From positions 1 through 63,536 of IMG/VR virus record IMGVR_UViG_3300046516_001004: a stretch of DNA of 63,536 bases; one strand, written 5' to 3'. This DNA is from a virus. Below are positions 1-63,335 of this stretch, piece by piece (position 1 is the first letter of the stretch; each line of letters starts with the position of its first letter). The position numbers were made by a program, and so were the translations under genes. The notes beneath the pieces are model-generated. The model was not told where the DNA came from and made no database searches. It saw nothing but the letters and a program-made list of their open reading frames with translations.

Positions 1-127
1 TACGAGTTCGCAAGCTATGTTCCTGCCGGTGGATACATTGCAGAAATCGGAGTGGATCAAGGCCGCAGCGCAAGCCTGCTGCTGGCTGCTTCTGAGAACA
101 CCGGAGCACACGTCTATTTGATCGACA
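1..127. repeat. Terminal overlap, copy 1 (identical to last 127 bases)
   Basis: These bases are identical to the last 127 bases of the window, and the reading frame of the gene spanning the two ends stays open across the join. An exact overlap of odd, k-mer-like length is typical of an assembled circular contig, so I read it as an assembly signature of a circular or circularly permuted genome and not as true terminal repeats. Confidence 0.9.
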
Positions 128-477
128 GCTGGGAAAGCATCCTTATCGATAACTGCTGGAAGGTCAAACGCCTGAAGGAAAAATATAAGGTCGATGGAAT
201 GGTCATGCGCTGGTTTTCCGACGAAGCGGCCGGCGAATTCGAAGATGGCAGTCTGGACATGACGCACATCGACGCCAACCATCACGCACCGCATCCGGAC
301 GACGACTGTCGGCTATGGATGCCGAAGCTGAAACCAGGAGGGGTGGCGTGCTTCCACGATTACTCGGAAGCCAATACCTTTCCGGCGGTCAAAGCGGCCG
401 TCGATAAGTACTGCGCCGGCTGGGAAGATCTTGGCGAGTGGGACTCGCTCGCGATCCGGCGAAAGCCAGGAAGGTAA
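1..477 (+). CDS. Class I SAM-dependent methyltransferase (3' part, gene spans the join)
   Basis: This is the C-terminal 158 residues of a 184-residue protein whose ATG is at 63332. The motif I start of a Rossmann methyltransferase is visible (AEIGVDQGRSASLLL), followed by a THIDANHHAPHPDDD stretch and FHDY near the end, the pattern of the small Methyltransf_24-type enzymes that act on sugars or natural products. It is a clear paralogue of the protein starting at 1002: same length, same N-terminal F-x-Q-x-x-E-F-T, same HDY and C-terminal layout. It overlaps the upstream glycosyltransferase by an ATGA junction. The acceptor is unknown; the gene cluster suggests a glycan. Confidence 0.8.
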   Translation, partial: YEFASYVPAGGYIAEIGVDQGRSASLLLAASENTGAHVYLIDSWESILIDNCWKVKRLKEKYKVDGMVMRWFSDEAAGEFEDGSLDMTHIDANHHAPHPDDDCRLWMPKLKPGGVACFHDYSEANTFPAVKAAVDKYCAGWEDLGEWDSLAIRRKPGR

Positions 478-480
478 AAG

Positions 481-1008
481 ATGAATCACGCAACAAATGA
501 TTTCGTTGGCGCAATGGTCGCGAAGTTTCCAATGGCAGGCCGGGTACTGGAGATCGGCTCACGCGATATCGGAGGCACGCATCGTCACTGGTTTACAGCC
601 GGCGAAGAGGGGACGCGCTACGAGACTTGGCACTCCACAGAACGATTTCCGGAGTTTGTCGGCATCGATCTGGTTGCCGGCAACGCCGTTGACCTAGTCA
701 TGGATTGCCACGAAATGTCATTCGATAACGAATCTTTCGGCGTGGTTCTGAGTACCAGCCAGATGGAGCACGACAGCGATCCATTCCGGTCGATGGTCGA
801 AATTTCCCGCGTGCTGAAAACAGGCGGCTACTTCATTTTCACAGCTCCCAGTTGGCGGGGAGAGGGGCCACATGATCATCACGACTATTGGCGCTTCATG
901 CCGGAAAGTATTCCCGAGTTGTTCAAACGCGCAAACCTGGAAGTGCTCGAATTTATTGATAACGCCGAAAGCAATGACCTGATGGCTTGCGGGAGAAAAC
1001 AATGCTGA
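481..1008 (+). CDS. Class I SAM-dependent methyltransferase (Methyltransf_11 type)
   Basis: The 175-residue protein has motif I as VLEIGSRDIGG, an acidic motif II region FVGIDLVAG, an LSTSQMEHDSDPFRSM motif IV region and KTGGYFIFTAPSW motif V, the classic order for a Methyltransf_11 enzyme. A HDHHDYWRF segment follows, common in sugar-related methyltransferases. It begins three bases after the previous stop, with AGGAAGG close upstream, and overlaps the next gene by seven bases. Substrate cannot be told from sequence. Confidence 0.82.
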   Translation: MNHATNDFVGAMVAKFPMAGRVLEIGSRDIGGTHRHWFTAGEEGTRYETWHSTERFPEFVGIDLVAGNAVDLVMDCHEMSFDNESFGVVLSTSQMEHDSDPFRSMVEISRVLKTGGYFIFTAPSWRGEGPHDHHDYWRFMPESIPELFKRANLEVLEFIDNAESNDLMACGRKQC

Positions 1009-1541
1009 CTTTCGAGCAGGCCTACGAATTTACTAAGACGATCGGATCCCACACGTCTTTCGAGAAGGAAGAGTGTGAGGCCTATTTTCATGTCTTGAAC
1101 CTTCTGCAAAAGCCGGCGTTGATCGTTGAAGTCGGACTGGAGTACGGCCGATCGAGTTCGATCGCGCTGCAGGTGGCACGCGTTCGGGATCTCGACTACG
1201 TGGGGATTGATCCTTTTCCGGTTGAGGAAGTCTGGGAATCCTGGATCGAGAATTTTGCCGGCATGTCCCCGTGCGTCTACAAAGAGAAGAGCACCCGAGT
1301 TAACGGGATTGGCAAGATCAACGCGATCCTAATCGACGGTGAACACTCCTACGAAAGCGTTCTAGCCGACGTGACGCACTTCGAGCCCTGTTACGTCTCT
1401 GGCACCTTCCTGATGTTCCACGACTATCAGCGCGAAAGTCTTCCGGAGGTCACAGAGGCGGTCGACGAATACATGGCCGCGCATCCGGAATGGCTGCCCG
1501 TCAACGTTTTCGGGACTCTTGGGATCTGGAGGAAAAAGTGA
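1002..1541 (+). CDS. Class I SAM-dependent methyltransferase, paralogue of the join-spanning gene
   Basis: I place the start at the ATG behind GGGAGA, giving 179 residues beginning MLTFEQAYEFT. Motif I reads IVEVGLEYGRSSSIAL, and the distal DGEHSY and FHDYQRE elements match the Methyltransf_24 pattern. Alignment by eye with the join-spanning methyltransferase shows colinear motifs over the whole length, so the pair looks like an in-cassette duplication followed by divergence. It overlaps the previous gene by seven bases and the next by a GTGA junction. Confidence 0.8.
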   Translation: MLTFEQAYEFTKTIGSHTSFEKEECEAYFHVLNLLQKPALIVEVGLEYGRSSSIALQVARVRDLDYVGIDPFPVEEVWESWIENFAGMSPCVYKEKSTRVNGIGKINAILIDGEHSYESVLADVTHFEPCYVSGTFLMFHDYQRESLPEVTEAVDEYMAAHPEWLPVNVFGTLGIWRKK

Positions 1542-2179
1542 GCAACGAAAATCAGGGGATGGATCGGAAGGTCTACGACAATTCGCGGGAGCTGGGAGAA
1601 TGGTACGACAGAAAATACATCGAGATGGGCGACGGCTGGAACACGCCAGCTGAGGAAGTCAACCGGCACCTGGATGACATTGGCGTTCCTTTCGACATGT
1701 CGAAGCTGCTGCTGGATGTCGGCTGCGGCGCCGGCCATTTCCTGCAGGAAGCCACGAAGCGCGTTGTCTGCATCGGCGTTGACCTGAGCGCTGTCGGGCT
1801 TCAACATGCAGCGTTAAGGGCACCTAGAGCGCGCTTGCTTCTGGAAGACATGGCGACTCTGGAAAGCACTTCAGACACGGGTCATGATGTGCGGTTCGAT
1901 TACATCGTCAGCATTGGATCACTGGAACACATCGTCGATCTTCCTGCGGCACTCGAAAATATTCGCGCCTTTCTCAAGGACTCAGGCAAGTTCTATTTCT
2001 ACTGTCCCAACGAGCTTTGGATGCACTTCGACCAGCCGAACGAAAAAACAATGACCGACGCTGCCTGGATCCAAACATTCCGATCGCATGGGCTGTTCAC
2101 TCACTGGTACCGGCGCTGGAATGACAATACCGCTTTCTGCGGAGGCCACAGCGAACAGGTTGCGGTGGAAATCGTGTGA
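1538..2179 (+). CDS. Class I SAM-dependent methyltransferase
   Basis: Translation most likely begins at the GTG that overlaps the previous stop (GTGA) behind GGAGGAAA, giving 213 residues. Motif I is LLDVGCGAGHFL, motif II VCIGVDLSAVG, and a DYIVSIGSLEHIVD motif IV is followed by a KDSGKFYFYCPNELW post-motif, all standard for ubiquinone/sugar-type methyltransferases. An ATG-initiated form extending 48 bases upstream is possible but would overlap the neighbour and lacks a ribosome site. Confidence 0.8.
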   Translation: MSNENQGMDRKVYDNSRELGEWYDRKYIEMGDGWNTPAEEVNRHLDDIGVPFDMSKLLLDVGCGAGHFLQEATKRVVCIGVDLSAVGLQHAALRAPRARLLLEDMATLESTSDTGHDVRFDYIVSIGSLEHIVDLPAALENIRAFLKDSGKFYFYCPNELWMHFDQPNEKTMTDAAWIQTFRSHGLFTHWYRRWNDNTAFCGGHSEQVAVEIV

Positions 2180-2430
2180 AGAAGAACATCCCCTGCACCT
2201 GCTGTGGCAGCATTCCGACGAGTTTGGTTCGCGAGCGCATACCGGGATCCCAGGGGAACATGGCCCAGTCGTTCGCCGATGAATACCGGCTCTGTTCCGT
2301 GTGCCTTGAAAGGGTAAGGCGAGCCGGAGCCATCTGTAACGTTGATTCGGAGCGCGGAAGGCATGAAGAGAGATTTACGGTCTACGGGAAAACATTCGCA
2401 TGGTTGAAAACACAGAAGGAATCGAAATGA
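2176..2430 (+). CDS. Small Cys-rich (zinc-ribbon-like) protein
   Basis: The 84-residue product has an N-terminal CTCCG knuckle and a CSVC knuckle around residue 41, consistent with a four-cysteine zinc site. It starts on a GTG overlapping the previous stop and ends in an ATGA overlap with the glycosyltransferase that follows, so it is translationally coupled inside the cassette. Not recognised as a named family. Confidence 0.65.
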   Translation: MKKNIPCTCCGSIPTSLVRERIPGSQGNMAQSFADEYRLCSVCLERVRRAGAICNVDSERGRHEERFTVYGKTFAWLKTQKESK

Positions 2431-3125
2431 AAATGGCGATCGTCACCGCGCACGCCGGCGCCGCTTGTCTGCAGGAATGTATTTTGACCTGGGGAGACAA
2501 CTTGCCGATCTTCCTGATGAACGGAAAGGGCGGGATGCTGCCGGCGTATCAGATGGGCTACTGGCACGCCACCGGCTGGAAAGCGGACCTGATCGCCTTC
2601 ATCCACGATGACGTGAAGATTATGGATCCCGGCTGGCATACGCGCGTGGCGAACCAATTCCAGGATCCCAGCGTTGGCCTTGTCGGCTTCGGCGGAGCAC
2701 TGGGACACGGCTCCGCGGCCATGTACAGTCAGCCTTACCGGTACCAGCTTTTAGCCCGTCACAACTTCATGTCAAATATGAAAGACGCCGAAAATCATGG
2801 CAAGCGGTTCATTGGCGAATGCGATGCTGCCGTGCTCGACGGCTTCGCGATGATCGTGCGCCGGGAAGTTCTTCAGCTGGCCGGCGGCTGGCCGATCGGA
2901 TCGGCGATCGGTTACGTGTGCTACGACTACTGGCTGTCCTGCATAACGCGCCGGCTGGGATACCGGATCCGGCTGGTCGGAATTCCCTGTGAACACTTAG
3001 GAGGGCAGACCTTCGTCAAGCTGGGAGTCGGCAAGGATCCCAAACACTGGGAACAATACATCGCCTCGCACCGGTACATCTACGACGAGTTCCAAGACGT
3101 TCTACCATTCGAGGTTTCACGATGA
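2427..3125 (+). CDS. GT-A glycosyltransferase (StrF/GT2-like)
   Basis: Starting at the ATG in the ATGA junction gives 232 residues. The core shows LIAFIHDDVKIMD, where HDD plays the part of the metal/nucleotide-sugar binding DxD, then GLVGFGGA, DGFAMIVRREV, GGWP and a C-terminal EHLGGQ. This order matches GT2 proteins related to the StrF domain. It should transfer a sugar from a nucleotide donor, in the cytoplasm. A start nine codons upstream exists but would add an uncoupled N-terminus. Confidence 0.78.
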   Translation: MKMAIVTAHAGAACLQECILTWGDNLPIFLMNGKGGMLPAYQMGYWHATGWKADLIAFIHDDVKIMDPGWHTRVANQFQDPSVGLVGFGGALGHGSAAMYSQPYRYQLLARHNFMSNMKDAENHGKRFIGECDAAVLDGFAMIVRREVLQLAGGWPIGSAIGYVCYDYWLSCITRRLGYRIRLVGIPCEHLGGQTFVKLGVGKDPKHWEQYIASHRYIYDEFQDVLPFEVSR

Positions 3126-3664
3126 GCAATGAATTTGTTCCACATGGAACACGCCTCAATATCGGATCCGGCCAGCGCCGCTTTGAAAATGCCGAAGGCT
3201 GGGTAAACGTCGACTGTGTGTCGCGGCCGGGACAGGTTCCGGACCTGATCTGTGACGTGGGCAGCCAACCGCTTCCCTATCCCGACGGCAGCATGGCCGT
3301 TGTCGTCCTTCATCACGTGTACGAGCACTTCGGGCTGGGCGAAGGCCATGCGATGATCCGCGAAATTCAGCGCGTGCTGACTCCCGGCGGCCGGCTGATC
3401 GTCACGGTTCCCGACATGGAAGCGCTTGCCAAACGCTGGCTGTCGGGAGAACTGGCCAATTACAACTACATGGTGAATGTCTACGGCGCCTATCAGGGCG
3501 AGCCCGGCGATCGCCACAAGTGGGGATATTCCCTGCCGGAACTGGCCGCGGATCTGGACCGTGCGGCACTATGGGCGAGGGTTCTCAAGTTCGATTTCCG
3601 CCAGATCTCCGGCGCCGACATTGCGCAGGACTGGTGGATCCTGGGAGTGGAGTGTGTCAAATGA
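3122..3664 (+). CDS. SAM-dependent methyltransferase (COG4627-like)
   Basis: The 180-residue protein opens with LNIGSGQRRFENAEGWVNVDC, the variant motif I of COG4627-type methyltransferases, then PYPDGSMAVVVLHHVYEHFG and LTPGGRLIVTVPD. It lacks extra domains. ATGA overlaps on both sides place it firmly in the same operon as the adjacent glycosyltransferases. Confidence 0.8.
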   Translation: MSNEFVPHGTRLNIGSGQRRFENAEGWVNVDCVSRPGQVPDLICDVGSQPLPYPDGSMAVVVLHHVYEHFGLGEGHAMIREIQRVLTPGGRLIVTVPDMEALAKRWLSGELANYNYMVNVYGAYQGEPGDRHKWGYSLPELAADLDRAALWARVLKFDFRQISGADIAQDWWILGVECVK

Positions 3665-3996
3665 GCGACAAGACGGTCTGCGAGGAATGTGGATACGAAA
3701 TCAACGAACACTATCACTGCCAGAAGGTGACGGCCGAACGGCTTCGGCTGGTCCAGGAAGAGCTTACCAATGCGCGATCGATGGTGGAGACCGGGCATCT
3801 ATACGTCACAGTGCTGGAAGGCGCGTTGGCAAAGATGCTAACGCAATGCGGAGAGCTGTTTGAGGTCTATTTGCCGTTGGTCGAGGAACACATGCCGGAG
3901 TTGAAGCCAACGATGATGAAGGCGATAGCTGATATCAAAAAAGTTGTATCCGACCACGAAGGGGAGAAAGGTCAAAAGAATGAAACTGTCAATTGA
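3661..3996 (+). CDS. Small protein with N-terminal Cys cluster and helical body
   Basis: The likely 111-residue product begins at the ATG of an ATGA junction. Residues 6 to 21 carry CEECGYEINEHYHC, a possible zinc knuckle; the rest is predicted mostly helical with a short coiled-coil-like VTAERLRLVQEEL. It overlaps the following glycosyltransferase by 17 bases. I do not recognise the family. Confidence 0.65.
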   Translation: MSDKTVCEECGYEINEHYHCQKVTAERLRLVQEELTNARSMVETGHLYVTVLEGALAKMLTQCGELFEVYLPLVEEHMPELKPTMMKAIADIKKVVSDHEGEKGQKNETVN

Positions 3997-4708
3997 TTAC
4001 ACGGGAGCCAATCCCGTCGTCCTGCTCTGCCACAACGCGATCGAGCTGACCAAGCAGGCTGTACGGTCGATCCTGGAGCAAGACATTCCCGTCGAGCTAC
4101 ACGTCGTCGATAACCACAGCACAGACGGTACAGCCGAATGGCTGGAAACCTTCGTGCCGAATCTCACCGTGTTCAAGCCGGCGCTGGGAGTTTCGTCCGG
4201 TTGGAATTTCGCACTGACGACAATCTTTCGGCGAAGTGATCATGCGTTGGTGGTGAACAACGACGTGATCCTTCGGCCCGACACCTATCGATCGTTGCTG
4301 GAAGACGGCGGACCGTTCGTCACGGCCGTCAGCGTCAACGATCCCAAGGGCATCGAGGGAGAGTGGCGGAAGGCGCCGCGGCCGCATCCGGACTTCAGCT
4401 GCTTCATGATCCGGAAGGAAGTCTGGGACCAGGTTGGCGGTTTTGACGAATCGATGAAGCTGTACGCCTCTGATGCCGACTATCACATGCGCATGCACCG
4501 GAACCACATCGAGGCCTATACAATCGGGATCCCGTTCTATCACTATGCCAGCGGCACATTGAAAGCGGCCAGTGCCGGCGAGAAAGCCATGATCCAGAGA
4601 CAGGCCGATCTGGACCGTGACCGATTCGAAGCAAAGTGGGGCTGCAAGGTGGGCTCCCCGCAGTACTACCAGATGTTCGGCCATGGAGCACCGGATGAAA
4701 AAGCTTAA
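3980..4708 (+). CDS. Family 2 glycosyltransferase
   Basis: Chosen start is the ATG after GGGGAGAAAGG, giving 242 residues. Features of GT2 enzymes follow in order: VVLLCHNAIELTKQAVRSIL at the N-terminus, ELHVVDNHSTDGT, ALVVNNDVIL (the DxD-like metal site), DFSCFMIRKEVWDQVGGFDE and a late YASDADYHMRMH. This is the Rhamnosyl/GT2 inverting fold. Acceptor unknown; neighbours suggest successive additions to one glycan. Confidence 0.85.
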   Translation: MKLSIDYTGANPVVLLCHNAIELTKQAVRSILEQDIPVELHVVDNHSTDGTAEWLETFVPNLTVFKPALGVSSGWNFALTTIFRRSDHALVVNNDVILRPDTYRSLLEDGGPFVTAVSVNDPKGIEGEWRKAPRPHPDFSCFMIRKEVWDQVGGFDESMKLYASDADYHMRMHRNHIEAYTIGIPFYHYASGTLKAASAGEKAMIQRQADLDRDRFEAKWGCKVGSPQYYQMFGHGAPDEKA

Positions 4709-5162
4709 GAAGAAAGTCACCAAACTTCGGCCACGAAAAAAGGTGAAGCGCAATCCCATGGATCGCGCGTTGGAGATGGCGGAGCACAAACACGAAACCG
4801 CCGTGGTGGAGTGGCAGAAGTGCCTGGGACGGATGCAATTCCTGAAGGAAGAAATTCCGCGACTCGAGGGAATCATTCGCGCGCTGGGCGGAACGCTGGG
4901 CCGGCCGTTTGTTGGGGCTCCGCCAGCTCAGAGCCGGCAGGCTTCAGCGGCTGCGGATGAATTCGATAATGCCGATGTCGTCGATCAAACCGCGGCAATC
5001 GCGGCAAATCCATTGACAGAAAGGGTGGCTACCGGGCCGGTACCTGGGACGGTTATCGTTCCTGCCCACCTGCAGCACATGGTCAAAGAACATCCTTTGG
5101 TTGTGAAGCCGAACATGGGGACACAAGGCCAGATCGCTGACGTCCACTTTCCAGAAGATTGA
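4695..5162 (+). CDS. Hypothetical basic coiled-coil protein
   Basis: About 155 residues. The first 20 are very basic (KKLKKKVTKLRPRKKVKR), then a heptad-like helix around residues 25 to 65, then a low-complexity Ala/Pro-rich tail. GGAG lies six bases before the chosen ATG; a start four codons earlier is also possible. It overlaps the glycosyltransferase end by 14 bases. Function unknown; a nucleic-acid or scaffold role is only a guess. Confidence 0.55.
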   Translation: MKKLKKKVTKLRPRKKVKRNPMDRALEMAEHKHETAVVEWQKCLGRMQFLKEEIPRLEGIIRALGGTLGRPFVGAPPAQSRQASAAADEFDNADVVDQTAAIAANPLTERVATGPVPGTVIVPAHLQHMVKEHPLVVKPNMGTQGQIADVHFPED

Positions 5163-5163
5163 G

Positions 5164-5247
5164 GGTCCGCCGGGAGAACGTCGTCGCAAAGAGGCTGGAT
5201 CCCGGTTATCAGGCGCTTGCTTCGCGCAAGGTATGCGACGGCGGACC
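5164..5247 (+). ncRNA. Candidate structured leader RNA before the GT-B gene
   Basis: A perfect nine-pair stem, GGTCCGCCG with CGGCGGACC, closes this 84-base intergenic segment. Inside it TCGCA pairs with TGCGA, and CTTGC-TTCGC-GCAAG forms a clean hairpin, so three helices nest without conflict. It ends 25 bases before the next start codon. A regulatory leader is inferred; compensatory changes in relatives would be needed to prove it. Confidence 0.4.
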
Positions 5248-5272
5248 ACATTTACCGAATGAAAGGTTTTGA

Positions 5273-6577
5273 ATGAAAACGCCATTACTGATTATCTCCG
5301 ACGCTCCCAGCGCATCGAGTGGACTGGGACGCATCTGCCGCGATCTCGCACTGGGCATTCACAGCACACTGGGCGATCTGTACGACGTCGGCACCTTGGG
5401 TTACGGGGGGAACGGCGATCGTTCGCTACCCTTTCCCCAATATCCGATCGAAGGAATGAGCGACTGGTTCATTCCCACCTTGAAAGACATCTGGTACAAC
5501 TTCGCCGGCGATCGCCGCGGAGCCGTGCTCACTATCTGGGATGCGAGCCGATTGCTATGGTTTGCCCGGCCGGACGAGAAAGTGTTCAGCCGCGATCGAG
5601 AAATCCGGGAATGGCTGCAGAACGCACCGTTTCAGAAATGGGGATATTTCCCCATGGATGCCACCGGTCCACACGGGATGCTTTGCCGGGCGAATATGGA
5701 ATGTCTGTTCGGCTTCGATCGGATCGTCGCCTACAGCGAGTGGGCGAAAGCAATGATCGAGAAAAGCTACAGCGACAACGATTGCCAGCGCCGGCAGCTG
5801 GTGGCGATCCCACACGGGATCCACACCACCGTATTCAATCCTCGTGGGCGCAGCGAAGCCATGGGAGTGTTTGCCAACGATTTGCATTTCCAGGGTCCGC
5901 CGATTCTCGATCACGAAAAGATCGTAGGCATCGTGGCTACAAATCAGTCCCGCAAAGATTACGGTCTGGCGTTTGAAGCGCTGGCCGAAGTGAATAAGGA
6001 AATGGCTGTCCGGATCTTTATTCAGATCGACACACTGGAGCGGCACTGGTCGATTCCTCAGCTGCTGTTCGACTACAACCTGATGCACCGGACGATCCTG
6101 AACACGAACCTGATAAGCGACGATGTCATGGCCAGGATCTACTCGGCCTGCGATCTGACGCTGGGGATCGGAGGAGGGGAGGGTTTCGGCTATCCCATCT
6201 TTGAGAGTCTGGCGTGCGGTACGCCGGTTCTCAGCGGGAATTATGGCGGCCAGGCAGAGCACATGGATGACGATTTTCTGATGCTGCCTGAAATGTTTCG
6301 GATCGAAGGCGCATATAACTGTGTCCGCCCGGTCTACAATTCAGACAAGTGGGCCTTCCGCATTAAGAAGTTTCTGTCCGCGAAGACTCCGCCGGCACGA
6401 TTCAACCAGAAGAAATCGCTACTTCCCGAACGGCTGGACTGGAAAAACCTGTGGCCGGAAGAGTGGGCGAAATGGTTCAGGACACAGCATCAAAGTCTTC
6501 AGGAGACGGCACCGATTCGGGTTCTTGCCAACAGGCCTGCCGATATGGGCATGGTGCCAGAGGTCCGTGGCACGTAG
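5273..6577 (+). CDS. GT-B fold glycosyltransferase (GT4-like)
   Basis: The 434-residue protein has an N-terminal IISDAPSASSGLGRICRDLA glycine-rich loop and a C-terminal GIGGGEGFGYPIFESLACGTPVLSG, the signature donor-binding E-x7-E region of retaining GT4 enzymes. SRKDYGLAFEAL in the middle matches the linker into the second Rossmann domain. It is the last gene of the rightward cassette. Its 3' end overlaps the convergent nuclease gene by 101 bases. Confidence 0.85.
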   Translation: MKTPLLIISDAPSASSGLGRICRDLALGIHSTLGDLYDVGTLGYGGNGDRSLPFPQYPIEGMSDWFIPTLKDIWYNFAGDRRGAVLTIWDASRLLWFARPDEKVFSRDREIREWLQNAPFQKWGYFPMDATGPHGMLCRANMECLFGFDRIVAYSEWAKAMIEKSYSDNDCQRRQLVAIPHGIHTTVFNPRGRSEAMGVFANDLHFQGPPILDHEKIVGIVATNQSRKDYGLAFEALAEVNKEMAVRIFIQIDTLERHWSIPQLLFDYNLMHRTILNTNLISDDVMARIYSACDLTLGIGGGEGFGYPIFESLACGTPVLSGNYGGQAEHMDDDFLMLPEMFRIEGAYNCVRPVYNSDKWAFRIKKFLSAKTPPARFNQKKSLLPERLDWKNLWPEEWAKWFRTQHQSLQETAPIRVLANRPADMGMVPEVRGT

Positions 6578-7400
6578 ATAGCTGCTTGTCGGGAAGCTCG
6601 CGGATCCGCGCAATTGCGTCCAACTTACGCAGGGCGATATCGCGGATCCGCTGGGCTTCACCTTCCTCCGGATACGGGATATCCACCACAAACAACGACT
6701 CCTGCAGCACATCATCTTCGAACATGGCCGCAAGCCAGATCTGCCGATCGATCTCGTCGTGATCCTCGCGCCACATCGGGATCCAGGTTTCCTTGAAACC
6801 ATCGATGGTTCCCCGCGATCGCTTCCGGAAACGGATACTGCTGCGCTGGGGATGGAGCAAAGCCTTCGACCAGTAACCATGCCGGCGGCCGCCATTCATG
6901 ACGCCCAGCTGCGCCACGATCATCTGCATGGGCATTTTCAGCATCGCCACTTCCCCGATCGCATACCAGGACCGGATCTCATGTTCGGCGCGTTCCTTGT
7001 TCCAGGATCCCACGGGAAGGAATCGGCGTAGGTACCGGCCGTGCGGATCCATAAGCGCCGAAGAGTTCCAGTAGGGCGAAATGTTAGGTGGTATTTGACA
7101 GTTTACCGTTCCGGGTTTACGGATCGCGGTGGCGACGATGTCCGCGATCGCGGCATGGTTCATCGCCGATCGGTGAACGTTGATCGCTTCAGCGTCGAGT
7201 CCGCGGTGTGCGGCCAGTTCGATGACGGTTTCTCCGGCCAGCTCGCCATAGTCTTCCCGTTCGGTTTCCAAAAGGGCAGCGACGACGCCACGGCGCACCA
7301 GTTCAGATGCCTGCAGCTTTCTCTTTTCCCAGCTGCGGGACCAGACGCCACGGCGGTTACAGGATTCGAACCCGGTAAGAATGTCAGCGGAGAAAACCAC
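6477..7400 (-). CDS. Cas4/RecB-like PD-(D/E)XK nuclease-fold protein with four Cys
   Basis: The 307-residue protein begins on a GTG overlapping the preceding stop by one base. One Cys near residue 14 (FESCNRR) and three near the C-terminus (C-x6-C-x5-C, followed by W) match the Fe-S cluster layout of Cas4/AddB-type nucleases. The catalytic D and ExK are not obvious to me, so activity is uncertain. It is the last gene of the leftward structural block, an unusual place for a nuclease, and its Cys-rich tail lies in the antisense overlap with the GT-B gene. Confidence 0.5.
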   Translation of the reverse strand: MVFSADILTGFESCNRRGVWSRSWEKRKLQASELVRRGVVAALLETEREDYGELAGETVIELAAHRGLDAEAINVHRSAMNHAAIADIVATAIRKPGTVNCQIPPNISPYWNSSALMDPHGRYLRRFLPVGSWNKERAEHEIRSWYAIGEVAMLKMPMQMIVAQLGVMNGGRRHGYWSKALLHPQRSSIRFRKRSRGTIDGFKETWIPMWREDHDEIDRQIWLAAMFEDDVLQESLFVVDIPYPEEGEAQRIRDIALRKLDAIARIRELPDKQLSTCHGPLAPCPYRQACWQEPESVPSPEDFDAVS

Positions 7401-45192: not shown

Positions 45193-45267
45193 ATGGTAAC
45201 AGCGCTTTTCACGGCCTGGATTGTCTGGCTGATAGTCCGGCTATTTATTAACCACGATGACGATTGA
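45193..45267 (+). CDS. Tiny membrane peptide
   Basis: 24 residues: MVTALFTAWIVWLIVRLFIN then HDDD, one transmembrane helix with an acidic C-end. It has no ribosome site beyond GCGGACCAAATGAA, a remnant of the TTCCAAC box. Its end overlaps an upstream ATG of the DUF3560 frame. Low confidence. Confidence 0.3.
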   Translation: MVTALFTAWIVWLIVRLFINHDDD

Positions 45268-45301
45268 AAATTCCAACGGACCGAACCAAGGAAGGAACCA
45301 A

Positions 45302-47095
45302 ATGGACACTGAAACAATTTCCAACGGACCAGACCAAGAGACCACCGAACAGCCGGCCGGCGCAAGCTGCTACATGTCGGCGACGTACGATCCCAGCGAC
45401 GACAAAATCAGACTCGAAGCCATGTCGCGACTTACTCCGGAGGAATACGCGCGCGCGAAAGCGGCCGGCTTCCGCTGGGCTCCAATGCAAAAGGTTTTCT
45501 ACACCGTCTGGAATCCAACGGCTGAAGCGCTGGCCATTGAATGGTGCGGAACAATTGAAGACAGCGACAAAACGTTAGTCGATCGCGCTGAGGAACGCGC
45601 GGACCGGTTCGAAACCTATTCCGACAATCGGGCAAAAGACGCGGACCGCGCACAAGCGGCCGTGCACGCGATCGCCGACAACATACCACTTGGCCAACCT
45701 ATCCTTGTCGGCCACCACTCCGAACGCCACGCGCGACGCGACGCGGAGAAAATCGAGAACGGCATGCGTCGAGCCGTGAACATGTGGAAGACGTCCGAAT
45801 ACTGGAAGCAACGCGCAGCCGGCGCACTTCACCATGCGCAATACAAAGAGCTGCCTGGAGTCCGCGCGCGACGCATTAAGGGACTCGAAGCCGACTTGCG
45901 GCGCTACATTGCCAGCTTCACGCCACGCAAGGATTCGACTGTCATCATGCAGCAAGATCATTATGAGCGTTACCCGCTGAACGGTCCCGGCAACAAGGAT
46001 GCACCGGAAGTGCCGCATGTGTTTGTAGGCCCGGCCGGCCGTGGTGGGCATTGGGTGGCGGAGCGACATCTAGCCGGCATTGAACGACGCGCGCGGCCGT
46101 GGATCGAACACATTTCCAACCGGCTGGAATATGAGCACGCGTTATTGGAGGAAGCCGGCGCAACAAACCTGCTGGCCAAAAAGCCGAAGTCAGCGGCCGC
46201 ACAATTGCCGCTTTGCAACTACGACGAACCAAAAGGCGTAGACACTGAGAACAAGTGGAACCGCGGGGAAATGCTCCATTACGCACAGAAGCGGATGACA
46301 CAGGCGGAGTATGCCGCGATCAACCAGGATTACAAGGGAACGCGCGTTATTGACAATTCGCACCGGGTGCGGACCGCAATGGTCGCGCACGGTCTGTATT
46401 ACGTTTTCCTCACAGACTCGAAGGTGCACGAACGGCCGGCGGCCGTGGTTCCACCACCACCGACGCCACGGCCGACGCGGGATCACGTTCCCCAGGAACC
46501 GAAGCCGGCGGATCCGGCGGCCGACACTTTCCGCGCGATGGAGCAATCGCTAAAAGCTGGCGTCAAGGTCATAGCCGTAAATCAGCTGTTCCCCACGCCA
46601 GCGGAGCTGGCCGCGCGTATGGTGGAAATGGCCGACATACAGCCGGAGCACAAGGTATTGGAACCATCCGCCGGCGAAGGTGCGATCGTTCGCGAAATCC
46701 CGCGCGACTGTAGATTAACGGCCGTGGAAATCAACTGGGCGTTGTGCAAGGCGCTAGAGCGTTCATTCCCCGAGGAACAGGGGCCGATCCATCATGCCGA
46801 CTTTCTGGAGCTGGGAACGCTGGTCGGGGATCCGATCCAATACGGGACATTCGACCGCGTGATTATGAATCCGCCGTTTGAGAATGGCGCCGATATAAAG
46901 CACATTGCGCACGCGTTGAAGTTCCTCAAACCAGGCGGCCGGCTTGTTGCGATATGCGCCAACGGTCCGCGCCAACAGGCCGCACTAGCGCCCGTCGCGC
47001 GAAGCTGGGAACCACTGCCGGCCGGCACGTTCGCGGGGACTGGAGTCAGCGCCGCACTGATTGAAATTTCCAACGGGACGGACCAAACGAAATGA
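45302..47095 (+). CDS. DUF3560 domain plus class I methyltransferase fusion
   Basis: 597 residues from the ATG after GGAAGGAACC. Residues 25 to 150 include CYMSATYDPSDDKIRLEAMSR and FRWAPMQKVFYTVWNPTAE, the DUF3560 opening; residues 420 to 590 form a methyltransferase with KVLEPSAGEGAIV (motif I) and FDRVIMNPPFENGADIKH, an NPPF motif of amino/DNA adenine or glutamine methyltransferases. The same combination appears on plasmids and large phages. It could modify DNA or protein; substrate unknown. Confidence 0.72.
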   Translation: MDTETISNGPDQETTEQPAGASCYMSATYDPSDDKIRLEAMSRLTPEEYARAKAAGFRWAPMQKVFYTVWNPTAEALAIEWCGTIEDSDKTLVDRAEERADRFETYSDNRAKDADRAQAAVHAIADNIPLGQPILVGHHSERHARRDAEKIENGMRRAVNMWKTSEYWKQRAAGALHHAQYKELPGVRARRIKGLEADLRRYIASFTPRKDSTVIMQQDHYERYPLNGPGNKDAPEVPHVFVGPAGRGGHWVAERHLAGIERRARPWIEHISNRLEYEHALLEEAGATNLLAKKPKSAAAQLPLCNYDEPKGVDTENKWNRGEMLHYAQKRMTQAEYAAINQDYKGTRVIDNSHRVRTAMVAHGLYYVFLTDSKVHERPAAVVPPPPTPRPTRDHVPQEPKPADPAADTFRAMEQSLKAGVKVIAVNQLFPTPAELAARMVEMADIQPEHKVLEPSAGEGAIVREIPRDCRLTAVEINWALCKALERSFPEEQGPIHHADFLELGTLVGDPIQYGTFDRVIMNPPFENGADIKHIAHALKFLKPGGRLVAICANGPRQQAALAPVARSWEPLPAGTFAGTGVSAALIEISNGTDQTK

Positions 47096-57778: not shown

Positions 57779-58450
57779 ATGTTTCAAACGCCAAATGTTC
57801 CGGCCTTCATGCAGAAAGCCTCTATCGAGGGACGCAAAGACAAAAAGGTGATCCGCTTCACCTTCTACATCACGCCGATCAAACACGCGCTGGCCGCGGA
57901 GATTTCGCCGGCGATGGCCGATCGGCTCTTCAAGTTCGATCCCTCGCAGACTCCGCATCCGGTAACCGAAATGGATTCCCCACACTTCAACCTGGGGAAG
58001 ATCGATCTTCAATTCATGATCCTGAATGGCAGCGACGATCCCAAAATGTCGCAGCACGGCACGATGCTGCAGAGCGCCCAGATATCGCACATCAGCGCGC
58101 GCAAACTGTTCCTTCCCGACAATCCGGATTTCTCGCTGATCTTCCGAGTGGAAGTCCCCTTCGATGACATCGGCTTCGATATGGTCCGGAAGTTCTACGA
58201 TGAAAAGCTGTTCCTCACATTTGAGCCCATGCAGCTGATGTTGGGAGAGAACCAGATTCCGCAGTGCGAGGAATGCGAGAATCCGGCCGTGTGTCGAGAT
58301 TCGATGGGGAACTACTTCTGCGAAGCGGACCGTAAGAAATCGACAGGAGAAGTCACCTACATCGTCCGGCAAGAATCGCCGGCGGAGAAGGAAGCCAGGG
58401 AAGCCGAAGAGCGCAAGGATACCAGTCACATCAACCGTAAGAAGAAATGA
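57779..58450 (+). CDS. Hypothetical phage protein with Cys site
   Basis: 223 residues behind AGGAGAAACG. A beta-rich body and a C-terminal CEECENPAVCRDSMGNYFCEADR zinc site. The central LPDNPDFSLIFRVEVPFDDIG repeats are seen in phage proteins of unknown role. Very charged end (EKEAREAEERKD). Confidence 0.6.
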   Translation: MFQTPNVPAFMQKASIEGRKDKKVIRFTFYITPIKHALAAEISPAMADRLFKFDPSQTPHPVTEMDSPHFNLGKIDLQFMILNGSDDPKMSQHGTMLQSAQISHISARKLFLPDNPDFSLIFRVEVPFDDIGFDMVRKFYDEKLFLTFEPMQLMLGENQIPQCEECENPAVCRDSMGNYFCEADRKKSTGEVTYIVRQESPAEKEAREAEERKDTSHINRKKK

Positions 58451-58638
58451 AACGACAGGACGGCGACGGCTGGAAGATCGTCGTTTTTTCGGCGGACTGT
58501 GATGAAGACGGAAACTGTCCATTTTGCAATATCGATTTTGCGGACTGCGATTGTCCCGGTCCCACGCAAGACGGCTATGAATACAGCGAGAACGATGGAG
58601 TGCTGTTCGCAAGGCCGGTTGAATCCGAGGAGGAGTAA
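58447..58638 (+). CDS. Cys-rich small protein
   Basis: 63 residues: CDEDGNCPFCNIDFADCDC clusters five Cys; remainder acidic. ATGA overlap with the previous gene, one-base overlap with the next. Confidence 0.6.
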   Translation: MKRQDGDGWKIVVFSADCDEDGNCPFCNIDFADCDCPGPTQDGYEYSENDGVLFARPVESEEE

Positions 58639-58853
58639 TGGCAGGACTTCCCAACACACACCAGAGCCTGGTAGCGGCCGGCTACACGTTCAGCTCGAAG
58701 GGACAGTGCCGCAAGTGCCCGGCGCTGATTCAGTGGTACACGACGCCGGCAAAGAAGTGGATGCCGTTCGATATGCCCAACGCGGACGGTGAGTTTGAAA
58801 ACCATTGGGCGACCTGCCCAGCCCGTGAAGCCTTTAAAAAAAAGAAGAAATGA
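58638..58853 (+). CDS. Zinc-knuckle small phage protein
   Basis: 71 residues behind AGGAGG: GQCRKCPALIQWYTTPAKKWMPFD and HWATCP-REAF, a C-x2-C...H-x3-C arrangement I know from small phage proteins. Lys-rich end. Coupled to the next gene. Confidence 0.65.
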   Translation: MAGLPNTHQSLVAAGYTFSSKGQCRKCPALIQWYTTPAKKWMPFDMPNADGEFENHWATCPAREAFKKKKK

Positions 58854-59059
58854 GACTCGATGGACCAATTGACGAAACGATCCGGATCGGAGAAAGACTC
58901 GTTCCGATCATGCCGACAGAAAGAGCCGGCCACGTGTTCGGCCCCGATCGCAAGCCTCATAGGAACCATCCGGCACGCAGGCCCAAACGCGTGCTTTATG
59001 TCCGAGACGACAAGCTGCATAGGATGGCCGACTGGTACCGGCCGAAAGGAAACCAATGA
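58850..59059 (+). CDS. Hypothetical basic small protein
   Basis: 69 residues with an N-terminal IRIGERLVPIMPTERAGHVFG and a basic C-terminus (RKPHRNHPARRPKRVLYV). ATGA overlaps at both ends. Not recognised. Confidence 0.55.
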   Translation: MRLDGPIDETIRIGERLVPIMPTERAGHVFGPDRKPHRNHPARRPKRVLYVRDDKLHRMADWYRPKGNQ

Positions 59060-59742
59060 CCGCGACACTCGAAGAGCTGGCAAGAAAGTACTCATCCGAC
59101 AAGCTGTACTGGCATAGCTACATTCCCATCTATGAATCCCTGTTCCACGGCGGCCACCTATGGAAACCGATGCCAGGCAGCGATGCTCCCGGCGCCGGAC
59201 CGGCGCTGTCGAGTTTTTTCTACTGCCAGATCTGCCGGTACCGGAACGATTCGCCGGAGATTCCGCCGTGCATTAACAAAGGCGTCGAGGTCCGCCGACT
59301 CCTGGAGATCGGTATCGGCTTCAAGGATCTGATGCAACCGTTCCTGCCGGCCGGCGTGGAATATGTCCACGGCTCGAGCCTGAAGATGTGGGAAGAGTTC
59401 TTCCCGGAAGCGGAGATTTTCGCCTGCGATATTCGCGAGGATGCGCTGATCAATGAAGGCCGGATCCGGTCGATGATCTGCGACCAGTCGAGCCCGTTTG
59501 ACCTTGGAATCATGTGTGGGGTCTTTGGACTTATCTATGACGTGATCATCGATGACGGTTCACACCAATACGAACAACAGAGGCTTAGCGCCCGAATGCT
59601 GCTGAAGTATTCAAATCCTTCGCTCTATGTGATCGAAGATGTCTGGGAAGACACCGGGTTACTTTTGGCCCAAGAATTCAACGGTCAGTTGATCCGCGGA
59701 GAGAAGGGACGGGACGACAACATGGTGGTGATCCGAAAATGA
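59056..59742 (+). CDS. SAM-dependent methyltransferase
   Basis: 228 residues. Opening SSDKLYWHSYIPIYESLF is the SDK-x-x-H-x-Y signature of a family of sugar methyltransferases; RRLLEIGIGF is motif I, AEIFACDIREDAL motif II and VIIDDGSHQYEQQ motif IV. It is the first methyltransferase of the glycan cassette. Confidence 0.78.
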   Translation: MTATLEELARKYSSDKLYWHSYIPIYESLFHGGHLWKPMPGSDAPGAGPALSSFFYCQICRYRNDSPEIPPCINKGVEVRRLLEIGIGFKDLMQPFLPAGVEYVHGSSLKMWEEFFPEAEIFACDIREDALINEGRIRSMICDQSSPFDLGIMCGVFGLIYDVIIDDGSHQYEQQRLSARMLLKYSNPSLYVIEDVWEDTGLLLAQEFNGQLIRGEKGRDDNMVVIRK

Positions 59743-59933
59743 TCGACGTATTGAAGCCAAACCCTTCATTGGTTGTAAAGATCGGATCCTTGATCGTGCA
59801 CTACCAGGAAGCGTTAGGCCCAAAGGGACATCCACTCGACTGGGAAGCCATAAAGTCGATCGAGGGTGAGCCCGACGTTCAGGAATGGTTCGCAGAGATG
59901 ACAAAGAAGGGATTTCTACCGGTGAAACGATGA
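59739..59933 (+). CDS. Hypothetical small protein in the glycan cassette
   Basis: 64 residues: LKPNPSLVVKIGSLIVHYQEALG and a helical C-end. ATGA overlaps on both sides. No domain recognised; it may be an accessory or unrelated passenger. Confidence 0.55.
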   Translation: MIDVLKPNPSLVVKIGSLIVHYQEALGPKGHPLDWEAIKSIEGEPDVQEWFAEMTKKGFLPVKR

Positions 59934-60634
59934 ACATCGTACTGATAACCACGGGCAAGCGCCTGGACCTGCTGAAACAGACGCTGCGAAGCCTGCGCGA
60001 CAATGCGGCAAACTTCAGCGCTCACCATCTGACGATCGTACTCGACGACTATCTGATGGTCGACAGGTTCGCCGACGCGCAAACCTTGATCATCAATACA
60101 AAGAGTCAAGGCGCCTCAGCTTGCAGGAACATCGGCGCCGGATCCATTCCGAAGTACCGCCGGCAAGAGCATGTGCTGTTCCTCGATGATGACGTGTACC
60201 TGTGTCCGAAGTGGGACGAGAAGCTATTGGAGTTGGCGGCCGTCTGTCGCGGGGACATCGTTAGCGGCTACTCCCATCCGTTCAACCAGGTGGAACTGTG
60301 CTCACTGATTACCGTTCGCGGCATCGAGCGTGAGTTTTGTTTTGGCCGCCCACTTGTCATTTCGTCCGTCGCGATGATGATGCCTTGGTACGTCTTCGAC
60401 TCAGCTGGTCCATGGAACGAACCCGGAGGCCCCGGCGCTTCAGAAGATTACGCCTTGTGCATGCGCGCCAAAGATATGGGAGTTGGTTTCGCGGTGACTG
60501 ATCCCCAGTGTGTGATCCACACCGGACTGATGAGCACCGCCGGTACTGCGATCGTCGGCTACAAGGAACTGTGCGAGCAAAACGACAAGCTGCTCGACTA
60601 CTGGAACATTCGAGGAAGGGTGACATTTCAATGA
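59930..60634 (+). CDS. GT-A fold glycosyltransferase (GT2-like)
   Basis: 234 residues from an ATGA junction. MNIVLITTGKRLDLLKQTLRSL, then HVLFLDDDVYLCPKWDEKLL (DDD metal site) and FDSAGPWNEPGGPGASEDYALCMRAKDMG, the typical acceptor/donor loop and ED motif of GT2 enzymes. N-terminal strand order matches GT-A folds. Confidence 0.8.
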   Translation: MNIVLITTGKRLDLLKQTLRSLRDNAANFSAHHLTIVLDDYLMVDRFADAQTLIINTKSQGASACRNIGAGSIPKYRRQEHVLFLDDDVYLCPKWDEKLLELAAVCRGDIVSGYSHPFNQVELCSLITVRGIEREFCFGRPLVISSVAMMMPWYVFDSAGPWNEPGGPGASEDYALCMRAKDMGVGFAVTDPQCVIHTGLMSTAGTAIVGYKELCEQNDKLLDYWNIRGRVTFQ

Positions 60635-60822
60635 AAACTAAACTACCGAAAAAGAGCGGCAGGAAGGAAACGGCGGCGCAGTGCCGCGCGCACCGAGACA
60701 AGACGAACATGGCGCCGTTCGTCCTAACGAAAACGTGGCAGGAGATATCCGAGGAAAGCGCAGTCCTTGCCTATTCGACTCAATGGCTGGCCTGCCCCGT
60801 TTGTGGGAGACCTATCGAATGA
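60631..60822 (+). CDS. Small protein with C-terminal zinc knuckle
   Basis: 63 residues: a basic N-terminus (MKTKLPKKSGRKETAAQ), a helical middle, and WLACPVCGRPI at the end. ATGA overlaps at both ends. No family recognised. Confidence 0.5.
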   Translation: MKTKLPKKSGRKETAAQCRAHRDKTNMAPFVLTKTWQEISEESAVLAYSTQWLACPVCGRPIE

Positions 60823-61544
60823 AACTCGCAGTACTGACCTGCGCGGCATTCCCCACTGAAGAGGAAGCACGCCGGAAGCTTTGGATCTTTCTGCGCAGCT
60901 GCCAGAAGTTCAACATCGATCCGATCCTGTACGGGATGGGCACGCCACAGTTCCAGGGTTACAAACGCATGATGCTGGATATGCAACTGGAGGCGCTGAA
61001 AAAGATCGATCGCACCTACACGCATGTTTTGTTTACGGACGGCTGGGACGCGTTCTTTCTTACCGACCTGCAGGAAATCATGTTCAAGTACGAAGCGCTG
61101 GGATGGCCAGAATTCTTGGCTTCCGCCTACATCGGTCTCGGCAATGAATCGGACATGTCGAAATACGAAGGCTGCTTTGACCAAACCAAAACGTACCGCT
61201 ATCCGAACCGCGGAGGCTACATGGCCGAAGTGGACGTCGCGATCGACATGTTCCAGAAGATGGTGGACATGCCACACCAGACCGGGGATGACTGCTTTAA
61301 CTGGTATGAGGGGTGGCGCGAGGGGTGGTTCCGGCCGACGCTAGACAGCAACTGCGAAATCTTCCAAGTGTCGGACGTGAATGCCGGTGTCGAACCGACG
61401 CCGGGTTGTCAAAAGATGCGGCTGATCAACACTGTTTCTAACAGTCGTCCGTGCATCCTTCACTTGTCCGGCGGCTACACTTCCCCGGATACCGGCAAAG
61501 ACGAAGCGCTGAAGCCGTGGGCCCGTGCGCTGGGGATTATATGA
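60819..61544 (+). CDS. PLOD/GT25-like glycosyltransferase
   Basis: 241 residues. YTHVLFTDGWDAFFLTDLQEIM carries a DG-D pattern used as metal-binding site in PLOD-type galactosyl/glucosyltransferase domains; later AEVDVAIDMF, TLDSNCEIFQ and CILHLSGGYT follow the same family. Coupled ATGA at the start and end. Confidence 0.65.
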   Translation: MKLAVLTCAAFPTEEEARRKLWIFLRSCQKFNIDPILYGMGTPQFQGYKRMMLDMQLEALKKIDRTYTHVLFTDGWDAFFLTDLQEIMFKYEALGWPEFLASAYIGLGNESDMSKYEGCFDQTKTYRYPNRGGYMAEVDVAIDMFQKMVDMPHQTGDDCFNWYEGWREGWFRPTLDSNCEIFQVSDVNAGVEPTPGCQKMRLINTVSNSRPCILHLSGGYTSPDTGKDEALKPWARALGII

Positions 61545-61717
61545 AGGGCGACTACACCTGCGAGCACTGCAAGGGAACGTTCAGGTCTGAGCGTCCAGAC
61601 GAAGAGGCGGAAGAGGAATTGAAAGACCTGTTCGGTACCACGCTGGAAGAAACCGAATGCGTGATTCTTTGTGACGACTGCTGGAGAAAGTTGGTGCGAG
61701 TTGAAATTGACAGCTGA
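61541..61717 (+). CDS. Small zinc-ribbon phage protein
   Basis: 58 residues: YTCEHCKGTFRSERPDEEAEEELKDLFG and VILCDDCWRKL, a two-knuckle zinc ribbon with an acidic helix between. I recall many phage homologues. It overlaps the downstream methyltransferase frame. Confidence 0.62.
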   Translation: MKGDYTCEHCKGTFRSERPDEEAEEELKDLFGTTLEETECVILCDDCWRKLVRVEIDS

Positions 61718-62381
61718 AGGGATCGCCGTCATCGAGGGAGACAACTACCTGTCCGCGCAGATCATCGTTGAGAAGCGGCTGGACGTTGCGAAGGATTTCC
61801 TTGAACTGTTCCGGCAGTACATTCCCGAAGGTGGAACGGTAGTCGACGTGGGCGCCAGTCTGGGCGACTACACCGTGACGTTTTCCGAAATGGTCGGACC
61901 GACTGGAAAAGTATGGGCCTTCGAGCCAAACCCGCCGACGTTCGAATGCCTACAACACAACATGCTCAATTTTCTCAAATTTGGAAACGTCGAGATCTAC
62001 GATCGCGGCCTGGGCTCTGCAAATGAGATGTGCGCAACTGTGATTGTCGACACAAACAATATCGGAGCTTCCCGCTTAGTGCGAGATGACAACGGACCTA
62101 TCCGCACCTGGCTTCTCGATTCCTTTTCAGACCAATTCACTCGCCTGGATTTCCTGAAGATCGACGCCGAAGGCTGGGAACCGCTGATACTCGACGGCGC
62201 CTCAGAAACGATTCTGAAGTTCCGGCCGGTCATGCTGATTGAAGTCAACACGTGGCCGCTGGGCAAGATGGATTTCACCGCGGAGTCGGTGTTCTCCAGG
62301 TTGGACCAGCTCAATTACAAGTTCGATCGATTCGACGGCCCGTACGGCGATGTGCTGTGCGTGCCAAAGGAAAAACAATGA
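61671..62381 (+). CDS. FkbM-family methyltransferase
   Basis: Up to 236 residues. VVDVGASLGDYTVTFSEMVG (motif I), VWAFEPNPPTFECLQHNM (motif II) and DFLKIDAEGWEPLILDGA plus LIEVN are FkbM hallmarks. These are O-methyltransferases of sugars or polyketides. The start is uncertain: GTG at this position overlaps the previous gene by 47 bases; TTG codons 30 to 36 bases later are alternatives. Confidence 0.78.
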   Translation: MTTAGESWCELKLTAEGIAVIEGDNYLSAQIIVEKRLDVAKDFLELFRQYIPEGGTVVDVGASLGDYTVTFSEMVGPTGKVWAFEPNPPTFECLQHNMLNFLKFGNVEIYDRGLGSANEMCATVIVDTNNIGASRLVRDDNGPIRTWLLDSFSDQFTRLDFLKIDAEGWEPLILDGASETILKFRPVMLIEVNTWPLGKMDFTAESVFSRLDQLNYKFDRFDGPYGDVLCVPKEKQ

Positions 62382-62530
62382 GTGAGCAAACCCTGAAAGA
62401 AATAGCCGCTGAGTTAAGCCTTACGATGCAATGCAATTGTGATCTGGACAATTGGGAACCGGAGACTTCAACTGGGCATTCGTGGGTCTGTAGGATTCAC
62501 AAGGCCGCGATGGCAAAGGAGAAAGCGTGA
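62378..62530 (+). CDS. Small phage protein with Cys pair
   Basis: 50 residues: LTMQCNCDLDNWEPETSTGHSWVCRIHKAA is a short module I have met in phage genomes, with three Cys and two His that might bind zinc. ATGA overlap with the methyltransferase, GTGA with the next gene. Confidence 0.55.
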   Translation: MSEQTLKEIAAELSLTMQCNCDLDNWEPETSTGHSWVCRIHKAAMAKEKA

Positions 62531-62637
62531 TTCCGACAGTAATGGCATTCCTCCGGCTGCCCCTCGTGCGCTGCGCGGAGTTGGTCATCCTTTGCGTTGC
62601 CGTTGCGGCGCTTTATTCTCTGAGGAAATCAAAATGA
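62527..62637 (+). CDS. Tiny membrane protein
   Basis: 36 residues beginning VIPTVMAFLRLPLVRCAEL and VILCVAVAALYSLRKSK: one transmembrane helix with a basic end. It starts on a GTG overlapping the previous stop and its TGA overlaps the next ATG, so the frame fits the gap exactly. Confidence 0.45.
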   Translation: MIPTVMAFLRLPLVRCAELVILCVAVAALYSLRKSK

Positions 62638-63335
62638 GACTTCTCGTCATCAGTCCCACCGGCCATCCGCCATTTGCAGAACGGATGATTGCCACCGCCA
62701 GACGTGTCGGCATTGAACCGATGCTCTATGGCCTGAACAGCAACCATCCCCACGGCAAGGATTATCAGGGAACGGATATCGTCAACATTCTCACAGAGCG
62801 GACTGACGCGGACTACGTCATGGGGGTCGATGCGCCAGACGTCGCGTTCGTCGGAGGCGAAGAGGAGATCCTAGCAAAGTTGAACACTTTTCATTTCCCG
62901 TTTGTCGTATCGGCCGAACACGATGGAGTCCGCGGTATCGACCGGCTGCAGGAGGAACTTCACCGGCAGTGCATCAACGATGGTGGCTACTTCCCGCAGA
63001 TGAATATTGGCGCCTGGATCGGCCAACGCGAGTATGCACTGAAGTGCTTCAATGAAGCCGAACGGCTCTACAAGGATCGTCCTGAGAATCCCGACTACAA
63101 CTACGACAACCACTTTCAGTATCTGGCCATGATGAAAGCTTGGGGCGGAATGCCGTTCCAGATCGACTGGCATTGCGTAATTTTTCAGTCGATGAACAAG
63201 GCGAACACAAAATGGCTGCCAGAGACCAAGCGGGTCTGGAACCAGTCGACCGGAACGTTCCCACCGGTGATCCACTTCAACGGGGATCCCACGCGAGAGG
63301 CTTATGGCGCAATGGTAAAGGAGATTCTGTCATGA
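62634..63335 (+). CDS. Glycosyltransferase-like protein (PLOD-like, distant)
   Basis: 233 residues. ADYVMGVDAPDVAFVGG and FVVSAEHDGVRGIDRL fill the places of the metal/donor motif of the neighbouring 241-residue glycosyltransferase; FPQMNIGAWIGQREY matches its acceptor loop. Gene order is repeated (glycosyltransferase then methyltransferase). It overlaps the next gene by ATGA. Confidence 0.6.
   Translation: MRLLVISPTGHPPFAERMIATARRVGIEPMLYGLNSNHPHGKDYQGTDIVNILTERTDADYVMGVDAPDVAFVGGEEEILAKLNTFHFPFVVSAEHDGVRGIDRLQEELHRQCINDGGYFPQMNIGAWIGQREYALKCFNEAERLYKDRPENPDYNYDNHFQYLAMMKAWGGMPFQIDWHCVIFQSMNKANTKWLPETKRVWNQSTGTFPPVIHFNGDPTREAYGAMVKEILS

Follow-up and report, generated by a model that had tools for sequence, protein, structure and literature searches.

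The window analysed here, the whole 63,536-nucleotide virus record IMGVR_UViG_3300046516_001004, carries a cassette of six glycosyltransferase (GT) and seven methyltransferase (MT) genes. We hold with moderate confidence that this cassette is an apparently intact, maintained and exchangeable operon that would build a methylated glycan, with the virion as its most likely site. This reading draws on gene content, coupling, motif retention, conservation, purifying selection, allelic replacement and the GTs found in the head operon of a relative; the sugar donors, glycan structure, virion acceptor and benefit proposed below are what we infer.

Operon layout and enzyme families

The two ends of the record carry an exact 127-bp terminal repeat. 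Repeats of this kind mark a k=127 assembly overlap, and the genome was therefore handled as a 63,409-bp circle, in which one gene reads over the join as a continuous 184-amino-acid (aa) frame (63332 to 477). A preliminary description of the window had named six GT and seven MT genes on either side of and across this join, and all 13 were recovered at the starts it gave (genes are named here by their starts):

59056..59742, plus strand: MT, MycE-like metal-dependent sugar O-methyltransferase; DDGSH and IEDVW motifs kept
59930..60634, plus strand: GT, family-2-like, DDD motif; conserved in 4 of 4 relatives
60819..61544, plus strand: GT, LH3/PLOD-type; D74, D77 and H215 kept; 73-79%, among the most conserved cassette enzymes
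61671..62381, plus strand: MT, FkbM-type; this phage only; start may be TTG near 61703
62634..63335, plus strand: GT, second LH3/PLOD-type; DxxD and His kept; this phage only
63332..63536, plus strand: MT, 5' part, Methyltransf_24, reading over the circle join
1..477, plus strand: MT, remaining 3' part of the gene over the join; bases 1-127 are the same as the last 127 of the window
481..1008, plus strand: MT, Methyltransf_11 type; this phage only
1002..1541, plus strand: MT, Methyltransf_24, rhamnosyl-O-MT/CmcI-like; rhamnosyl-O-MT/CmcI match above cut-off
1538..2179, plus strand: MT, Methyltransf_23/12 type; 68-71% identity in all relatives
2427..3125, plus strand: GT, Glyco_tranf_2_5 type, HDD motif; 58-59% in all relatives
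3122..3664, plus strand: MT, Methyltransf_11 type, atypical N terminus (LNIGSGQ)
3980..4708, plus strand: GT, family-2; 68-75% in close relatives, about 42-47% in larger relatives and one from a single amplified genome (SAG)
5273..6577, plus strand: GT, GT4-type, EGFGYPIFE motif; most widely shared cassette gene in the wider group
6477..7400, minus strand: convergent gene closing the late operon, the cassette boundary; 101-bp overlap with the 3' end of GT 5273

The enzymes belong to a single packed plus-strand operon running from 57779 to 5162, with GT 5273 following after a 110-bp gap. The cassette ends this operon, which also holds nuclease-type genes and lies on the strand opposite to the structural genes. 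The ATGA or GTGA couplings that had been remarked on were borne out as 4-bp stop/start overlaps, which account for 17 of 24 junctions from 57779 to 5273; promoter scans returned no more sites than shuffled sequence. GT or MT genes account for 13 of 25 operon genes versus 1 of the 49 other open reading frames (ORFs) scanned, some of which may not be genes (Fisher P 6e-7), so the clustering is not due to chance. None of the 49 gave a GT hit, and the single MT hit, at 45257 (45257-47095), is a fusion of DUF3560 with a domain of the small-methyltransferase type, for which many phage 'DNA methyltransferase' families give matches.

Curated Pfam cut-offs are exceeded by 11 of the 13 enzymes, the exceptions being GT 59930 and MT 59056. 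The GT2 match of the former is sub-threshold (20.4 versus 23.3 bits), and its assignment is also supported by the DDD motif and by conservation. MT 59056 has no Pfam hit; it matches PHROG 21658 (E 1.6e-7) and, over 94 aa, both MycE (3ssm, E 2.9e-13) and the TylE-type demethylmacrocin O-methyltransferase 8ia9 (E 4.3e-12). Its IDDGSH and IEDVW motifs align with the metal or base residues Asp275, His278 and Asp304 of MycE, which have been named as family residues (PMC9275233) and which are kept in the orthologs compared. The similarity of the catalytic domain and the retained Asp/His/Asp thus match a MycE-type sugar O-methyltransferase, with predicted activity on a sugar hydroxyl. The protein also holds a 44-aa Cys-containing insert (FFYCQICRYRNDSPEIPPC) that is missing in three aligned orthologs. 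A MycE-like domain served as the model for mimivirus R132, which has been proposed to methylate a virion-fibril sugar (PMC10117803). Among the other MTs, the join-spanning enzyme and MT 1002 have Methyltransf_24 domains with Asp-x-x-His and HDY motifs, the former with a weak likeness to 6g7d (E 1e-3). MT 3122 and MT 481 have less typical S-adenosylmethionine (SAM) motifs, and their predicted activity is the least certain.

The two PLOD-type enzymes, GT 60819 and GT 62634, are distant paralogs (19% identity) that score 35.7 and 29.3 bits against Pfam PF25342 (cut-off 27). A profile of this type reaches mimivirus R699 at E 2.6e-11 and human LH3 at E 5e-10 with the DxxD and His aligned, and D74, D77, N130 and H215 are invariant across eight sequences that include phage relatives; the Mn2+ ligands of LH3 are Asp112, Asp115 and His253 (PMC6082870), and the donor of R699 is UDP-glucose (PMC11838735). 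Both R699 and LH3 glycosylate protein side chains or side-chain sugars. We file the phage proteins as bearing a related GT domain rather than as collagen-modifying enzymes, a placement made by similarity.

That the cassette could build a methylated glycan, as the preliminary description proposed, therefore stands at the level of families: the MycE-type active site, the rhamnosyl-O-MT/CmcI and FkbM similarities, and the DxxD...H of both PLOD-type GTs all fit. We also checked for loss of catalytic residues in most of the enzymes and found the residues retained.

Conservation and exchange among relatives

A search with terL returned 24 IMG/VR loci, three of them with a terL 76% identical to that of the window, and a fourth close relative was found through GT 60819. 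In all four the cassette occupies the same junction between the plus-strand operon and the convergent late genes. Comparison with related phages for gain and loss, which had been suggested as a check, revealed nine enzymes in the same order in five of five phages (MT 59056, GT 59930, GT 60819, MT 1002, MT 1538, GT 2427, MT 3122, GT 3980 and GT 5273) and a tenth, the join-spanning MT, in three of five; at the place of MT 1002, the gene in relative G002 is just 35% identical, which leaves orthology there uncertain. The remaining enzymes occur only in this phage among the five: MT 61671 and GT 62634 sit with small genes in a single inserted block, and MT 481 is a separate insertion. Larger relatives (105-143 kb) carry homologs of GT 5273 and, in some, of GT 3980 and the Methyltransf_24 enzymes. 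Pairwise ratios of nonsynonymous to synonymous substitution (dN/dS) for the shared enzymes are about 0.09-0.30 where estimable, with dS often near saturation; these enzymes are under purifying selection. The 101-bp coding overlap of GT 5273 with the convergent gene (6477-6577) is retained in G002, G003 and G004.

The cassette differs between phages that are otherwise nearly the same. Between G002 and G003, one tract of 39,081 bp, head and tail genes included, is 99.87% identical, and two more tracts of about 5 kb reach 98.3-99.7%; in the cassettes, identity falls to about 75-86% where the two can be aligned, and the rest does not align. In G003 and G004, near-identity holds as far as about GT 59930, gives way to divergence from GT 60819 to GT 3980, and then returns. 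Near-identical structural genes beside wholly or partly divergent cassettes indicate that the cassette has been replaced, whole or in part. Exchange as a block or by parts among related phages could mean that near-identical phages display different glycans. Other variable tracts are the flank upstream of the cassette and a region around 64.6 to 1.5 kb of G003. The ends of G002 carry a 684-bp redundancy at 94% identity, which makes a strain mixture in that sample likely, and the contig may be chimeric. Over terL, portal and scaffold proteins, a further record, L001 (IMG/VR 3300046526_000253), matches the window at 100% identity, placing the same phage in another sample.

Acceptor and competing readings

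The closest known parallel in gene content comes from mycobacteriophages. Corndog (cluster O; gp35-gp38) has an O-methyltransferase and three GTs between portal and protease (PMC4351075), and capsid and tail tube are reported to be modified in cluster O mycobacteriophages (PMC11600133, PMC4351075, PMC12363180); other glycosylated mycobacteriophages (Che8, Myrna) likewise have an O-methyltransferase gene adjacent to several GT genes. The operon described here is a much enlarged version of these cassettes. The likeness is drawn from gene content between phages that differ in lineage and host, and whereas Corndog has four genes in its head operon, here 13 lie at the end of an opposite-strand operon. 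A closer counterpart in position is L089, a phage contig in a single-cell assembly, in which a GT4, a GT2, a PLOD-type GT and another GT2 follow one another between terminase and portal, a block that resembles that of Corndog. Mimivirus glycan enzymes offer a second parallel, since the families of the MycE-like MT R132 and the PLOD-type glucosyltransferase R699 are both represented here; unlike mimivirus, which has its own nucleotide sugars, collagens and collagen-modifying enzymes (PMC10117803, PMC9546862), this genome has none that we recognised.

The preliminary description had also held that nucleotide-sugar synthesis genes are lacking and that host donors would be used. No such gene was recognised in the scan of the 49 other ORFs, and use of host donors fits with the UDP-sugars that serve the LH3/R699 family (PMC6082870, PMC11838735). 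We propose that six soluble GTs would draw on host UDP- or other nucleotide-sugars to assemble a short branched or chained glycan, with as many as seven SAM-dependent MTs capping the hydroxyls; that the MycE-like enzyme would methylate in the 2-O manner is guessed from its family. The acceptor would most likely be a virion protein exposed at the surface, in the capsid, decoration or tail, and would be modified during particle assembly. The phage could benefit by hiding its virion from binding factors of the host or the environment, or through a change in adsorption.

The preliminary description had left the glycan either on the virion or on the host envelope. Its methylated glycan finds support at family level; the choice of surface is undecided, and the evidence leans to the virion. 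The main cassette proteins have no predicted membrane segment (19-residue hydropathy peaks at 1.73 among those tested), none of them has a Pfam hit to a GtrA flippase, a GtrB prenyl-phosphate GT or a membrane-spanning GT, and no flippase gene was recognised in genome scans. Together with the placement of GTs in L089, these results favour a virion protein over the envelope.

Several points weigh on the other side. The cassette ends a nuclease-holding operon opposite to the structural genes, unlike that of Corndog, and the placement among head genes is seen in L089 and not in this genome. No acceptor protein was recognised. The similarity to LH3 led us to consider a collagen-type acceptor bearing hydroxylysine; six-frame translation holds no Gly-X-Y run of at least six triplets, and no 2-oxoglutarate oxygenase or lysyl hydroxylase was recognised, which makes an acceptor of this type unlikely. 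Rapid swapping of glycan genes, too, also fits modification of the host envelope.

That alternative, in which the cassette remodels host lipopolysaccharide, capsule or exopolysaccharide and so excludes other phages or stops progeny re-adsorbing to debris, is the most serious of those weighed, and we consider it unlikely. GT2, GT4 and FkbM enzymes are typical of envelope-polysaccharide clusters, the cassette shares its operon with nuclease-type genes, and serotype-type loci show the same fast allelic turnover beside near-identical structural genes. Among temperate phages, the serotype-converting gtr clusters are comparable, as phage GTs able to alter surface sugars, but here there are many MTs, and no GtrA- or GtrB-type membrane protein or lysogeny gene was recognised. 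When 84,980 bacterial and archaeal genomes were scanned by terL alignment, a scan limited in sensitivity (two contigs, one in a SAG and one in a metagenome-assembled genome (MAG), later surfaced through a GT), no locus was found, and GT homologs sit in the head operon of a relative.

It is improbable that the cassette instead makes or inactivates a small molecule, or glycosylates or methylates a host protein for takeover or counter-defence, with no surface glycan. MycE, CmcI and macrocin O-methyltransferases act on antibiotics, and sequence does not reveal acceptors, but no scaffold-making gene was recognised in the operon, and six GTs of three families with seven MTs suit an oligosaccharide better. 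Least probable of all is that the GTs decorate modified phage DNA bases against restriction, with the MTs acting on DNA or DNA sugars: phage GTs can hypermodify DNA, according to the passage of PMC12619734 that cites Pyle 2024, GT 59930 has a marginal sub-threshold match to a TET-associated GT family (13.2 versus 27.5 bits) and the join-spanning MT and MT 1002 match phrog_2675 'DNA methyltransferase', but that match is partial on a longer profile, the same MTs score well above the Methyltransf_24 cut-off, enzymes of the MycE and LH3 types have glycosides or proteins as substrates, and no TET/JBP dioxygenase, nucleotide hydroxymethylase or nucleotide kinase was recognised in the 49 other ORFs, most of which match nothing.

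Distribution, host and accessory genes

Virion glycosylation is documented in few phages, and the claim that few carry so many such enzymes agrees with the comparisons made: cluster O mycobacteriophages have three GTs and one O-methyltransferase, and matches among phage records are few. When seven cassette proteins were compared with 50,697 such records, three were matched in 2-9 records and the FkbM-type MT 61671 in 19, all below 60% identity, and GT 5273, GT 2427 and GT 59930 had no match. A single-sequence scan of viral contigs with GT 5273 confirmed nothing, although the scan is low in sensitivity, since relatives do carry this gene.

The closest cultured relatives, with a terL of 31% identity, are Tunturi_1 and Tunturi_2, Arctic-soil podoviruses of Tunturiibacter (Acidobacteriota) (PMC11924767) that are likewise 63 kb in size with related head genes. 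Unlike the window, Tunturi_1 has no GT cassette annotated anywhere, its own convergent junction included, and none of the cassette proteins finds a match in it; the cassette was thus either gained in the branch of the window or lost in that of Tunturi. L090, a contig in an Acidobacteria MAG, has homologs of GT 5273, the join-spanning MT and GT 3980 beside related late genes. The host of this soil phage is likely to belong to the Acidobacteriota. The SAG that contains L089 (about 0.9 Mb, 16S not assignable to phylum) was not used as host evidence.

Returning to the virion reading, we put forward a wider proposal, which we regard as possible rather than probable: uncultivated soil phages, probably of Acidobacteriota, may carry an exchangeable 'phage O-antigen' locus, an operon of about 10 kb with a core of nine to ten enzymes and accessory GTs and MTs, which would make a highly methylated virion glycan and, swapped between near-identical phages, create glycan types. 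With a conserved operon of up to 13 enzymes that is replaced in blocks beside constant virion genes, phage glycan typing would become testable, and glycan diversity in soil, where there are no antibodies, would pose the question of the selecting force. The operon further offers sugar O-methyltransferases and small LH3-type GTs.

Upstream of and between the enzymes lie further plus-strand operon genes:

57779..58450, plus strand: operon gene directly upstream, no assigned function; 52-58% in relatives
58447..58638, plus strand: small Cys-rich protein, 63 aa, 5 Cys
58638..58853, plus strand: small protein, 71 aa; 57-63% in relatives
58850..59059, plus strand: small protein, 69 aa, coupled to MT 59056; weakly conserved
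59739..59933, plus strand: small protein, 64 aa; 62% in one relative
60631..60822, plus strand: small CxxC protein, 63 aa
61541..61717, plus strand: small zinc-ribbon-like protein, 58 aa; in the block unique to this phage
62378..62530, plus strand: small Cys protein, 50 aa
62527..62637, plus strand: 36-aa peptide with one hydrophobic stretch; GTGA/ATGA coupled between 62378 and GT 62634
2176..2430, plus strand: small protein with Cys pairs, 84 aa
3661..3996, plus strand: small CxxC protein, 111 aa
4695..5162, plus strand: 155-aa protein, no assigned function; 29-36% in all close relatives

Some of these had been described as small zinc-type genes. Genes with Cys pairs do stand between the enzymes (58447, 60631, 61541, 62378, 2176 and 3661), but those scanned reach no Pfam zinc family cut-off. 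Elsewhere in the genome, one non-cassette ORF, its position not pinned down, matches Pfam Acb2_Tad1_hairpin (E 1.2e-7), of the nucleotide-sponge anti-defence type. In several larger relatives (L015-L022) the terL matches are split by gaps, and terL of L089 holds an intein-like insert (2594-5590), which suggests inteins or introns in terL across the group.

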